From contig DLUH01000001.1 of assembly GCA_002742845.1 (NCBI GenBank), forward strand, positions 124,001 through 188,000: a stretch of DNA of 64,000 nucleotides. Direction: 5' to 3'. The stretch comes from Sulfurovum sp. UBA12169 (GTDB lineage: Bacteria; Campylobacterota; Campylobacteria; Campylobacterales; Sulfurovaceae). Of this stretch, positions 5,073 to 8,488 are shown piece after piece. Position 1 is the first letter of the stretch, and each line of letters opens with the position of its first letter. The notes under the pieces are model-generated. The model ran no database searches, was not told where the DNA came from, and was given only the letters and a program-made list of their open reading frames with translations. A program made the translations under genes and the position numbers.

Positions 5073-5161
5073 GATAACCCTCCGGCTTTAGTTGTCGATG
5101 AGAGGAATTTTGTTTGCATCCTCTATGAGGCACTCTCCTCATTTTCATCAAGTGGTATAAA

Positions 5162-5190
5162 AGTAGTATATAAAAAATGTTCGGCTATTT
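5162..5190 (-). promoter_or_regulatory. Sigma70-type promoter facing the flavin reductase gene
   Basis: On the minus strand TTGAAA and TATACT are separated by exactly 17 bases, a near-ideal spacing, followed about 90 bases later by the flavin reductase ATG. The 29 bases 5162-5190 match 8391-8419 at 27 positions, and that copy faces the first cassette. The segment lies inside a 72-codon open frame (5123-5341) that I reject as a gene. Confidence 0.6.
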
Positions 5191-5258
5191 CAACCGCTAT
5201 GAGAATTTTATGGTTGAGATGTGCTGCTTTCTCTCTATGAAACTCCAGCTTGGAGACA

Positions 5259-5330
5259 AGGGAACGTTTAAAATGAGCAATCAAAAAGCCGCTCGCGGGT
5301 TTTTGATTGGTCTCCTTTGAATTGTTATGT
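5259..5330 (-). repeat. attC-like recombination site, end of the array
   Basis: Read on the minus strand: an ACATAACAATTC R''-side box (the TAACAATTC matches what I recall of the aadA1 attC), a perfect 10-bp inner stem (5300-5309 with 5278-5287) around a 12-base GC-rich loop, then AAACGTTCCC containing the GTT core (5265-5263). Total 72 bp, in the same orientation as the upstream gene, which ends 11 bases away. The core triplet is followed by CCCTTGT, close to the CCCTCGT after the attC-like site at 7730-7797. A chance 72-codon frame runs through it. Confidence 0.7.
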
Positions 5331-5340
5331 TCACTAGTCA

Positions 5341-5892
5341 TTATTGTTTTAGTAATTTTTTTGATGACATTAATACGAATATATTATTAATGAGCAATTC
5401 TGATGCCTTCTTATAAACTGGCTGGTAATTTGTTTCAACTTCAAATGTATGGGCAGGTGCATGTCCTAACAAGGGTTCATAAAGCCTAAAAGTAAGGCCG
5501 TGTGCAACAGGATTGCGTATGTCAGTATAAAATGTGTCATAGTCTAATTTTTCCTTATCTGTTAAAACAGCAGTTTCAAGAAGCTTTGTGGTTATTTTTC
5601 TGAAGGAGAGTTTCTCTTTATTAATAATCTCGTCTTCTCTATTCATTAGATTTTGAAGTTGTTCTTCAATATTTTCTTTGCTTGGAATGAAGCCATCAGG
5701 ATTAGCCGTTTGCCGAACTAGACGAGTTGTAAAAATCATCTCATAAAGAGTCGCACATAGACTGGCGCACGTACTAAACTTTCTATCCATGTAAAACATT
5801 AGTGCGTCGCGAAACATATCATTTTCAATTGCTCTGTGAAATTTCACATGTCCAAGTAAAAACTCTGAATATATCTCATTTATAGGCTTCAT
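5341..5892 (-). CDS. Cassette gene, HEPN-like protein of unknown function
   Basis: 183 residues, predicted all-alpha and soluble, with no recognised family. The segment DIRNPVAHG (about 125-132) contains R-x4-H (Arg126, His131), the catalytic pattern of many HEPN-fold ribonucleases and of RiboL-PSP/AbiF-type defence or toxin proteins. That is a motif match only, and the rest gives no firm family. A good ribosome site (AAAGGAAAG) precedes the ATG. It is the only gene between two attC-like sites (5911-5979 upstream, 5259-5330 downstream), the form expected for a single-gene integron cassette. No promoter of its own is evident; expression would come from upstream in the array. A helical scaffold without RNase activity is equally possible. 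Confidence 0.6.
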   Translation of the reverse strand: MKPINEIYSEFLLGHVKFHRAIENDMFRDALMFYMDRKFSTCASLCATLYEMIFTTRLVRQTANPDGFIPSKENIEEQLQNLMNREDEIINKEKLSFRKITTKLLETAVLTDKEKLDYDTFYTDIRNPVAHGLTFRLYEPLLGHAPAHTFEVETNYQPVYKKASELLINNIFVLMSSKKLLKQ

Positions 5893-5910: not shown

Positions 5911-5979
5911 ACATAACGTTTGAATTGAGCCAATAAATTAGCCGCAGGGTAATTTATTGGCTCCACTGATTTGTTAGCA
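5911..5979 (-). repeat. attC-like recombination site (strong)
   Basis: Read on the minus strand this 69-bp element starts TGCTAACAAATC and ends AATTCAAACGTTATGT. The inner stem is perfect over 14 bp (5950-5963 with 5927-5940, GAGCCAATAAATTA type) with a 9-base loop. The frame TAACAA...GCC-loop-GGC...CAA-CGTTA is that of known attC sites such as aadA1. It aligns closely with the site at 7730-7797, including the CCCT-GCGG loop. It lies 3-4 bases past the stop of one gene and 18 bases before the start of the next. Confidence 0.82.
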
Positions 5980-5982
5980 CCA

Positions 5983-6324
5983 CTACCCAAGTTTTTTGTT
6001 TATAGCTTTGCTCAAAGTATTAAGTGGATCTAATTCTTCTTCAACCTTGGTCCCAAACAATGACTCAAAACCTTTAAACCTAAACCAACCTTTTACTTTG
6101 ACACAAGTTATGTACCCATCATTTACAGGGCATGCCAAAACTAACCGCATTTTTGTTAACTCCCTTAAAACTGCTACGTTAAGAGAATCGAAATCATGGA
6201 TTTGACCACAAGCACACTCAAAAGGATGACCGTCATAAGCAGATGTATCCATTTGGCTAGGTCTACCTCCTAAAGTTTCTGCAAAAAAATCAGTTGGCTC
6301 TAATATTCTCATTTGTTTTCTCAT
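5983..6324 (-). CDS. Cassette gene, small protein with zinc-ribbon-like Cys pair
   Basis: About 113 residues from the ATG at 6324 (MRKQMRI); an internal ATG at 6312 is also possible, and neither has a strong ribosome site. An open frame extends to 6408 but would overlap the preceding gene by 41 bases, so I reject that start. FECACGQIHDF carries a Cys-x-Cys pair, and one further Cys follows in each of LACPVN and ITCVK, a possible metal site. No family recognised. It follows the 6368-6910 gene after 43 bases and ends within the start of an attC-like site, so the two genes probably form one two-gene cassette. Confidence 0.5.
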   Translation of the reverse strand: MRKQMRILEPTDFFAETLGGRPSQMDTSAYDGHPFECACGQIHDFDSLNVAVLRELTKMRLVLACPVNDGYITCVKVKGWFRFKGFESLFGTKVEEELDPLNTLSKAINKKLG

Positions 6325-6367
6325 CGATTTAGTATTAACCAGCTCAAGCAGTAAGATTGAGTGGTAA

Positions 6368-6910
6368 TTATGAATAAAACCTCTTTTGCTCTTTTGCCAG
6401 TACTGCAATTACTGGAACCCATTGAGTTAAATACATTGTTTGAGCCAGCAAATCGTGCGCTTCATTTTTTGGATATAAATACTGAGCATACTGACTACAC
6501 AGTGTAAACAAATATTCTCCCGGAGTTTTTGAAGACATATCAATTGAAGCTAATTTGTTCTCAAAATAAGATATGCTCTCGATAAACTCATTCCATCTAG
6601 ATTGTTTATCCATCCCCTCGTATCTCACTAAAATGAGCATCAGTATTTGTTGATGGTAATCTTCTTCTTGCTCATTAAATTGTAGATCATCACTGAATTT
6701 TGCAAAAATATTGGCCAAAACGATGTAGATATTATCATTTTGGTGATAGTCAAATGAAGTTTCAAAACCTTTTGAACAATCATCAACATTTGTAGCGACG
6801 AAGTTGGCATATTCTTCAATGGAGTGCATGTCTGCAAGTATTTTTTTTGTAACACTTACCAAGTCATCTTTCTTTTTTTGCCCAAAAAGATTTTTTATGA
6901 AGCCGAGCAT
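6368..6910 (-). CDS. Cassette gene of unknown function
   Basis: 180 residues, soluble. It begins with a basic, slightly hydrophobic MLGFIKNLFGQKKK segment that could touch the membrane, followed by predicted alpha-helix rich in acidic and aromatic residues. I do not recognise a family. AAAGGAC before the ATG is a good ribosome site, and the start lies 15 bases after a GTTAGC core at 6931-6926, as expected for the first gene of a cassette. It precedes the 5983-6324 gene on the same strand. The AT-rich composition is like the other array genes and unlike the flanking flavin reductase and methyltransferase. Confidence 0.6.
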   Translation of the reverse strand: MLGFIKNLFGQKKKDDLVSVTKKILADMHSIEEYANFVATNVDDCSKGFETSFDYHQNDNIYIVLANIFAKFSDDLQFNEQEEDYHQQILMLILVRYEGMDKQSRWNEFIESISYFENKLASIDMSSKTPGEYLFTLCSQYAQYLYPKNEAHDLLAQTMYLTQWVPVIAVLAKEQKRFYS

Positions 6911-6924
6911 CTTTGTCCTTTTTT

Positions 6925-7017
6925 TGCTAACTATTTATTCAACAAACATTATATAACAAACAGCTTGACATTTGACAGATAAACGGATGCTGAAAATGTT
7001 CATTTAAGTGGTTAAAA
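6925..7017 (-). repeat. attC-like site (weak candidate) after the transposase gene
   Basis: The right half is good: AATAAATAGTTAGC on the minus strand (GTTAGC core at 6931-6926) is shared with the site at 8336-8394. The left half is degenerate: a TTTTAAC box near 7017-7011 and short complementary pieces (AACATT/AATGTT, CAGC/GCTG). Position and orientation are right for the 3' end of the transposase cassette, but the fold is not convincing by eye. Confidence 0.4.
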
Positions 7018-7064
7018 TATGACAAATTGCAATATTTTTACTGTTTTCTATCTAAAATCTTTTT

Positions 7065-7094
7065 CTCGTTCCCATCGTCCCCGATGGGAATGCA
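7065..7094. repeat. REP palindrome, right of the RAYT gene
   Basis: CTCGTTCCCATCGTCCCCGA and the following ten bases form a hairpin (TTCCCATCG / CGATGGGAA around a short loop). The 30-bp element is the exact reverse complement of 7700-7729 (30 of 30 positions). It lies 16 bases beyond the transposase stop codon. The layout is that of REP sequences bracketing their own RAYT gene. Confidence 0.8.
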
Positions 7095-7109
7095 GACTAG
7101 AATTTTGCA

Positions 7110-7643
7110 TCACCAGAACCTCTCGATCTCTATGAGTCCATCGATTCCCTCATAATTTCTGGCACTGGAGTATCTCCAATGTTTTGCCTCATCCACATAG
7201 CCTCTTTTAACAGGGTTCTGATGGATATAGTTTATCTTGTTTATCATCATAGCATCTGTTTGTATAAGTTTGGGTTGGGTGCCTTCCTGCCATATCTGAT
7301 AGCTTGCTGTAGTCTTATGTGCTTTCTTATAAAAAGCAAACTGTTCGAGTAATGTTGTAGCATTTTCTTTTTGAAGCAGCTTTAGTATCTCTTTGGCGGT
7401 AAATGATTTAAAATGCTTCATACTTCTTGCGATATCATCACTGCCGGCTATCAAGTGCATATGGTTTTCAAGAATGACATAAGCGTAAAGTTTGAGATTC
7501 TCTTCTGTTTGCAGATATCTTAGGCTGTCAAGAATGATATCTACGCTTTCCGGTCTTGTAAATACAGGAAGCCAGTTGAGTATCGTACAGGTAAAGAAAT
7601 GAGGATGTGTTGTTTCATAAATTTTGTAGCGACTTCTTCCCAT
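7110..7643 (-). CDS. REP-associated tyrosine transposase (RAYT, Y1/HUH family)
   Basis: 177 residues of the IS200-like Y1 transposase fold. The HUH metal site is His-Met-His at 61-63 (ENHMHLI), and the nucleophile is Tyr139 in NKINYIHQNPVKRGYV, the C-terminal motif characteristic of RAYT proteins. RAYTs nick and rejoin single-stranded DNA at REP hairpins and are thought to spread REPs through genomes. Both catalytic motifs are intact. The gene is flanked by perfect inverted REP copies (7065-7094 and 7700-7729). The whole module occupies one slot of the attC array: one REP begins two bases after the GTT core of the attC-like site at 7730-7797. No clear ribosome site precedes the ATG. Confidence 0.9.
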   Translation of the reverse strand: MGRSRYKIYETTHPHFFTCTILNWLPVFTRPESVDIILDSLRYLQTEENLKLYAYVILENHMHLIAGSDDIARSMKHFKSFTAKEILKLLQKENATTLLEQFAFYKKAHKTTASYQIWQEGTQPKLIQTDAMMINKINYIHQNPVKRGYVDEAKHWRYSSARNYEGIDGLIEIERFW

Positions 7644-7699
7644 TTGTTTATTGTATCTTATTTTTGTTTATGGTGTTATGTGCGACTGACCTTGGGGTA

Positions 7700-7729
7700 T
7701 GCATTCCCATCGGGGACGATGGGAACGAG
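7700..7729. repeat. REP palindrome, left of the RAYT gene
   Basis: TGCATTCCCATCGGGGACGA plus ten further bases; exact inverted copy of 7065-7094. Its outer end abuts the attC-like core: on the minus strand GTT (7734-7732), CC, then CTCGTTCCC of the REP. Confidence 0.8.
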
Positions 7730-7797
7730 GGAACGGTTGAGTATAGCTAATAAGTTATACCGCTAGGGAACTTATTAGCTACTATGTTTTGTTAGCA
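7730..7797 (-). repeat. attC-like recombination site (strong)
   Basis: On the minus strand it runs from TGCTAACAAAACATAG to CTCAACCGTTCC. The inner stem is perfect over 13 bp (7769-7781 with 7744-7756, TAGCTAATAAGTT type), with a 12-base loop containing CCCTAGCGG. It aligns along its length with the site at 5911-5979, as expected for attC sites of one array. The stop codon of the AbiV-like gene (7784-7782) lies inside it, a common cassette arrangement. Confidence 0.8.
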
Positions 7798-8327
7798 AGC
7801 TTACTTAGTATTGGATTCGTAAGTGTTTCTGAATGCCAATGTGCTCGTAAACATTTAAATGCAAAATCAACTAATTCTTTGCATTCATCTTTTGTGATTT
7901 GTTCAGATGGAAGCAAAAATTCTTTATTTTTAGCATCTACATATGTAGCTAAGTTCTTTTTTTCAAAAAAACTGCCAACTGAAATGTTAGCTTTTTTTAA
8001 CCATTCCACATCACTATTGTTTTGTAGGTCAGTTTCCAAACCAAACATATAGTAATGAAAGTTTTGAGATGTAATTTTTTTTGTATGATTATAGAAGCGT
8101 TTTTTTAATTTCTTCCAATCAATAGTTTCACCTAACTCAATTTTTGCAATAGCCCCAACTATAATTGGAATTTTCCCTAATTCTTCAAAACAAAAATAAG
8201 CAAGGAGATAAGCTCTGCTGAACATTTCATGGTCAAGTAACAGCTTGGCTTCTTTTTGCAAATTCTCTGCGTTGTCAAATATTGCTATACGAAGTGAATG
8301 TAATTCTTTAATTGTTAAATTTTCCAT
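7782..8327 (-). CDS. AbiV-family abortive-infection protein
   Basis: 181 residues matching the AbiV (HEPN-AbiV) family pattern as I know it: an N-terminal helix with EAKLLLDHEMFSRAYLLAYFCFEELGK (the A..LA..a.EElGK core, residues 26-52), a central WKKLKKRFYNHTKK with R77-x3-H81 and following Lys pair, and a C-terminal KNLATYVDAKNKEFLLPSEQIT corresponding to the family's YVD...P block. AbiV of Lactococcus blocks phage multiplication by interfering with translation of late genes; family members are found in many phyla. It is the first gene of the attC array, starting 9 bases after the GTTAGC core of 8336-8394, with GGA as ribosome site. A promoter at 8391-8419 points into it. Confidence 0.8.
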   Translation of the reverse strand: MENLTIKELHSLRIAIFDNAENLQKEAKLLLDHEMFSRAYLLAYFCFEELGKIPIIVGAIAKIELGETIDWKKLKKRFYNHTKKITSQNFHYYMFGLETDLQNNSDVEWLKKANISVGSFFEKKNLATYVDAKNKEFLLPSEQITKDECKELVDFAFKCLRAHWHSETLTNPILSKLANKT

Positions 8328-8335
8328 AAATGTCC

Positions 8336-8394
8336 AGCTAACTATTTATTAGAGGAACACAATATCCTCTATCCCCTTTATTGAAGTGTTAGTA
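8336..8394 (-). repeat. attC-like site at the head of the array
   Basis: 59 bp on the minus strand, from TACTAAC (8394-8388) to GTTAGCT (8342-8336). It has a 6-bp inner stem, AGAGGA/TCCTCT, with an 8-base loop. The arms between inner stem and boxes pair poorly, so this is weaker than 5911-5979. The right end AATAAATAGTTAGC matches 6925-7017. It could be an attC whose gene was lost, or the attachment site at which the array grew. Confidence 0.55.
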
Positions 8395-8419
8395 GTATAT
8401 AAAAAATATCCGGCTATTT
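8391..8419 (-). promoter_or_regulatory. Promoter reading into the cassette array
   Basis: Minus-strand TTAAAA and TATACT with a 17-base spacer, immediately upstream of the first attC-like site and the AbiV gene. Identical at 27 of 29 positions to 5162-5190. This is the place an array promoter should occupy. Confidence 0.5.
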
Positions 8420-8456
8420 TAATAAATATTACAATTTATCATATTTTTTTATTTTT

Positions 8457-8488
8457 CCTCGTACCCAAGCCGGAACTTAGGTACGAGG
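8457..8488. repeat. REP-like hairpin after the methyltransferase gene
   Basis: CCTCGTACC and GGTACGAGG (9-bp perfect arms) enclose CAAGCCGGAACTTA. It shares the CTCGT-CCCA start with the REP pair around the RAYT gene. It lies 14 bases past the methyltransferase stop, so it may also serve as a terminator for that gene. Confidence 0.55.

Follow-up and report, generated by a model that had tools for sequence, protein, structure and literature searches.

A Probably Mobile RAYT/REP Unit Repeatedly Found in Integrons, Which It May Help to Erode

Introduction

RAYT genes (REP-associated tyrosine transposases) are found in a standard layout, in which the gene is flanked by two inverted REPs (Nunvar 2010, PMC2817692). 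Movement of such REPtrons as units is not apparent in one survey (Quentin 2018, PMC6006769), and another reported no evidence of mobility for tnpAREP genes (PMC8266576). Mobile elements of other kinds are known at attC sites, among them group IIC-attC introns and IS1111-attC elements (PMC7923331, PMC11187229). In addition, one published case places an IS200/IS605 element at an end of a CALIN (cluster of attC lacking an integron integrase), and its authors remarked on the clustering of elements that use single-stranded DNA (PMC7923331). Our literature search found no paper that connects RAYTs with integrons; they are mentioned together once, incidentally (PMC3390384).

Here we describe a REP-RAYT-REP module of Sulfurovum sp. 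UBA12169 that starts two bases past the core of an attC. It lies in a stretch of 64,000 nucleotides, which we call the window and whose first letter is position 1. Like the REPtrons of RAYT or TnpAREP type, the module combines an HUH Y1 transposase of the NF047646 family with two inverted REP hairpins. It departs from them in the feet of its REPs, in belonging to a clade with several unit copies per genome at unrelated sites, whereas REPtrons are reported immobile, and in the repeated placement of that clade in integrons. As in the case of the IS605-type element mentioned above, an HUH Y1 element lies beside an attC array without intI; that was, however, a single case with tnpA and tnpB, whereas here a RAYT/REP unit is found in several genomes and is compared with controls.

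Results

Read 5' to 3' on the minus strand, the locus begins with a methyltransferase gene (9156-8503). It is followed by a decayed REP-like palindrome, read from the sequence (CTCGTACCC...GGTACGAG, 8458-8487), and by a first attI without intI (attI-A, 8340-8437, minus strand; E 4e-18), on whose intI side the palindrome lies. This attI shares 90% identity with the attI region that precedes an intI in another genome (G065:C117; G, C and L numbers are our own handles for genomes, contigs and loci). The first cassette comes next, with a gene for an AbiV-family abortive-infection (HEPN) protein (7782-8327, minus strand; TIGR04498 110 bits, PF18728 109 bits, PADLOC AbiV) and its attC (7732-7797, minus strand), the GTT core of which is at 7734-7732. 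Past this core and two further bases, CC, lie the outer (5') REP (7700-7729, minus strand), the RAYT gene (7110-7643, minus strand), the inner (3') REP (7065-7094, plus strand) and a second attI without intI (attI-B, 6929-7031, minus strand; E 3e-14), homologous to attI sites that adjoin intI elsewhere (G012:C30, G020:C31, G028:C1 and G090:C35). Behind attI-B there are, all on the minus strand, two ORFs (6368-6910, without a relative among the loci compared, and 5983-6408) with an attC (5912-5979; E 7e-16; 90-91% identical to attC in G001:C2), one ORF (5341-5892) with the last attC of the array (5263-5330; E 4e-11), whose core is followed by CCCTTGTCTCC, and a remnant like the upstream part of attI-A (5151-5207; E 6e-4; 81% identical to 8391-8437).

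Some further observations were made on this arrangement. The AbiV-family protein (7782-8327) represents a phage-defence gene travelling as an integron cassette. Next to the last attC core, at 5243-5262, the minus strand reads CCCTTGTCTCCAAGCTGGAG, which resembles a decayed REP with the same 2-nt spacing, being too decayed for certainty. The two attI differ in type; together with an attI-like remnant as a third (5151-5207) they lie within 3.4 kb, and the locus has no intI.

The RAYT is an intact protein of 177 aa, which scores 99 bits with NF047646 (cut-off 80). Its H61-x-H63 and Y139 are invariant across 25 homologues, bearing out the preliminary description of this DNA, which had reported intact HUH and Tyr residues. 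In a phmmer comparison with the PDB, TnpAREP (4er8) was the only match, and a weak one (E 0.0011). The two REPs had also been called exact inverted copies of 30 bp, and they are identical at 30/30 positions, the minus strand at 7729-7700 and the plus strand at 7065-7094 both reading CTCGTTCCCATCGTCCCCGATGGGAATGCA. As single-stranded DNA, both fold at about -10 kcal/mol, with z about -5 to -6. The canonical 5' GT[AG]G foot of REPtrons is absent from them: the outer foot reads CTCG and the inner one TGCA (GTATGCA). With up to three mismatches allowed, the REP has two copies only in the 1.86-Mb genome, so that the dispersal of REPs in many genomic copies is not seen here; a relative, G012, has up to about 60 pattern matches. 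The placement of RAYT between two inverted REPs is the same in dozens of homologues.

The neighbouring site, at first described only as attC-like, is a real attC according to our profile (E 2e-10 locally and 1.2e-11 genome-wide), and it aligns at 78-83% with attC from other arrays of Sulfurovum. Equally accurate was the observation that the outer REP begins two bases past the GTT core: the minus-strand junction is CTCAACC-GTT-CC-CTCGTTCCC. The profile was built from 29 sites and is a sequence-only model, because RNAalifold found no common base pairs in the attC alignment. A folding-based scan for attC, which gave many false positives, was dropped in its favour, and Rfam returned no attC family and nothing above gathering for the locus.

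Across 78 genomes of the genus, which hold about 240 attC (sum of per-genome counts), the link between RAYT modules and integrons is real. Within 2 kb of an attC, a distance of the analyst's choice applied to genomes that are mostly MAGs, we found 8 of the 28 RAYT modules (18 genomes), three of which, from G024, may not be independent, against at most 0.25 expected (P 4e-11). Counted per genome, 6/18 have a module near attC (P 2.6e-8), and a ninth module, in G012, lies near an attI, with 18 nt between its end and the attI core. Just one of 59 IS3-type (rve) transposase matches lay within 2 kb of an attC among those listed (Fisher P 4e-4); this comparison slightly favours RAYT, because for one RAYT module (G024, 690 kb) the attC came from the local profile, whereas IS3 was scored on the attC listed. 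None of 19 distant Y1 relatives was near an attC, again among those listed. Mapped on the RAYT tree, the integron label changes eight times, and at least six of these changes are forced by well-supported branches. The label is not clustered on the tree, and a single special lineage of integron-borne RAYTs was accordingly rejected.

Related REP-RAYT-REP units occur by the dozen in Sulfurovum, Sulfurimonas, Sulfuricurvum and other Campylobacterota. Two copies from the same genome, G089 (L142, 9751-10445, and L239), are 695 nt long and 92.5% identical. Their alignment begins at CTCG and stops at CGAG; the sequences on either side are unrelated, and a duplicated target is not visible. Same-genome copies at two sites in G024 (L150 and L228) are 91-95% identical, and their homology stops at the REP edges. 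These comparisons show that the edges of the unit are exactly CTCG and CGAG, and they are evidence that the whole REP-RAYT-REP unit is mobile. On the minus strand of the window, with a slash for the edge, these read GTTCC/CTCG at the outer REP and CGAG/AAAAAG at the inner one. Next to 44 left and 42 right ends the sequence obeys the rule TT(T)YY/RRAAA, that is, a T-rich stretch and two rarely-G bases before the unit, and purines followed by an A-rich stretch after it: there is a T at position -3 in 37/44, G is rare at -1 and -2, and A makes up about 72% at +3 and +4.

In the genome studied here, no match to the integron integrase model TIGR02249 was found over the cut-off; 20 of the 78 genus genomes have an integron integrase over the family cut-off. 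The three attC sites of the window stand without intI, as expected of a CALIN or a decayed integron. With its attC array in a genome without intI the window is like a CALIN, and it is better named a decayed double integron, because two attI sites remain. Since these attI sites match regions in front of intI elsewhere and the genome is without intI, the locus is a decayed Sulfurovum-type integron, in which two integron platforms were probably joined. G034 and G001, which share the synteny of flavin reductase and methyltransferase, have retained attI-A there and have no intact intI beside it; in G093, attI-A is found next to the flavin reductase. On the upstream (intI) side of attI-B, homology reaches to about 10 nt from the REP, and the edge of the module is 34 nt from attI-B. 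In other integrons, matches to intI begin 78-153 nt upstream of the attI, and the module here occupies the place where the intI of attI-B would be expected to start.

Discussion

Our preferred reading, to which we give a probability of roughly 0.7, is that a mobile RAYT/REP unit was inserted in a decayed integron at a T-rich/A-rich junction. The RAYT and its two inverted REPs would form the mobile unit, with CTCG and CGAG as edges, and this unit would most likely move as a single strand, as IS200/IS605 elements do. The HUH tyrosine transposase would cut at the REP hairpins, and insertion would take place at TTYY/RRAA without target duplication. Contact with the attC would then arise from the core's own TT satisfying the target rule, and intI may have disappeared together with the insertion or afterwards, when REP copies recombined. 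Against the mobility of the unit stand the published surveys, in which REPtrons and tnpAREP genes were reported as immobile (PMC6006769, PMC8266576). An empty site for the window's module was looked for among relatives and none was found, because the window's cassette genes are without relatives among the loci compared; insertion at this exact spot is therefore what we infer.

The two attI of the window and those of G034, G093, G024 and G012 lack intI and end, on the intI side, at a REP or REP-like palindrome (REP borders at 8458-8487 of the window, L133 9885-9910, L134 8650-8670, L150 7802-7830 and L222 4937-4962). Among the attI sites examined that have an adjoining intI, none has a REP or REP-like palindrome on the intI side. 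Moreover, intI remnants are found near RAYTs in G001, G073 and G018, and an intI lies beside a RAYT fragment in G025. Together, these associations suggest that intI was removed by REP insertion or by recombination between REPs. Many other attI without intI have no REP on the intI side, so that REP-linked loss is at most one route. A possible, though tentative, later history is that two modules, one near or at the attC and the other upstream of attI-B, recombined through their REPs, removed intI and left one bridging module, the tight contact with the core being secondary. This is compatible with our preferred reading and agrees with the six cases of REP borders, with the place of the module where the intI of attI-B is expected, and with the remnants just mentioned. 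However, no intermediate with two modules and an intI was found, and the window's REPs are identical, as for one intact module, although identical copies could still recombine.

A different account is given by the preliminary description, in which the attC core was offered as a landing site. The transposase, or the single-stranded attC hairpin, would direct the unit to the 3' foot of attC, in a way that recalls group IIC-attC introns and IS1111-attC elements, which reach attC by their own means. Part of this stands. In addition to the window's module, which starts 2 nt past the core, two cases with a spacing of 3 nt were found, namely a G024 module behind an attC core and, in G020, a solo REP palindrome behind the GTT of an attC-like sequence. 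The last two came from a looser search for CGTT...CTCGTTCC, the exact-pattern search for attC plus REP in the 78 genomes having yielded only this site and one chance match, because TAACAA was demanded. Two starts at 2-3 nt from the core exceed uniform placement within arrays (P 0.004-0.04, according to the space assumed), and an attC piece lies within 80 nt of 5 of the 86 module ends versus 35 of 8000 control windows (P 6e-5). In G070 and G093, the module abuts what appears by eye to be a truncated attC piece, and the strong clustering of modules near attC points in the same direction.

On the other hand, the remaining in-array modules, a small sample with both orientations, lie at 28 nt and 45 nt (both in G024), about 90-120 nt (G019 and G073) or hundreds of nt from the core. 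With distances from 2 to more than 100 nt, the independent copies do not share one place of insertion relative to attC. This variation sets RAYT modules apart from group IIC-attC introns and IS1111-attC elements, which are likewise mobile elements found at attC and enter it at a defined point. The large majority of the 86 module ends have no detectable attC, and the TTYY/RRAA rule holds without it. Homologous modules free of attC contact, the very observation that the preliminary description had named as speaking against its proposal, turned up when looked for across relatives. Because GTTCC/unit/AAAAAG fits the flank rule, the core is an acceptable target without being recognized as attC. The contact with the core is thus probably a by-product of the rule, a preference for the foot of attC is not needed to explain the data, and we consider guided landing unlikely.

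Capture of the module as a cassette was also put forward in the preliminary description. IntI would have taken up the module with the core as its beginning, which is very improbable and largely refuted by the missing attC: the module does lie directly behind the core in the sense orientation, like a cassette gene, and a G024 module is found between two attC sites, but where a cassette would carry its own attC after the gene the window has attI-B (7031-6929), the G024 module directly behind a core is antisense, modules within arrays are in the same orientation as the array in five cases and opposite in four, the G019 module breaks a cassette ORF close behind the start codon, and related modules are also found far from integrons, most of them with no detectable attC at their edges.

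Our preferred reading bears on both of the systems that meet at this locus. RAYTs have been described as immobile, domesticated transposases, and the comparative evidence gathered here suggests that one clade moves as REP-RAYT-REP with exact edges. Its recurrent placement in integrons, beyond that of IS3-type transposases, ties together two systems that work on single-stranded hairpins. On this reading the RAYT/REP unit repeatedly lands in integrons and may help to erode them, and this adds a candidate route, open to testing, for the loss of integrases and the origin of CALINs from integrons. A broader and doubtful proposal is that the RAYT/REP clade of Sulfurovum and its relatives, moving as whole units, prefers integron DNA, attracted by exposed single strands of attC and attI, and that it removes integrases by insertion and REP recombination and so makes CALINs.

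A syntenic flavin reductase-methyltransferase locus is present in another genome (G034:C11; L133, 7380-10560). It holds a RAYT fragment that is 95% identical to the window's RAYT and lies at another position, together with an IS3-type transposase and cassettes that differ from those of the window.
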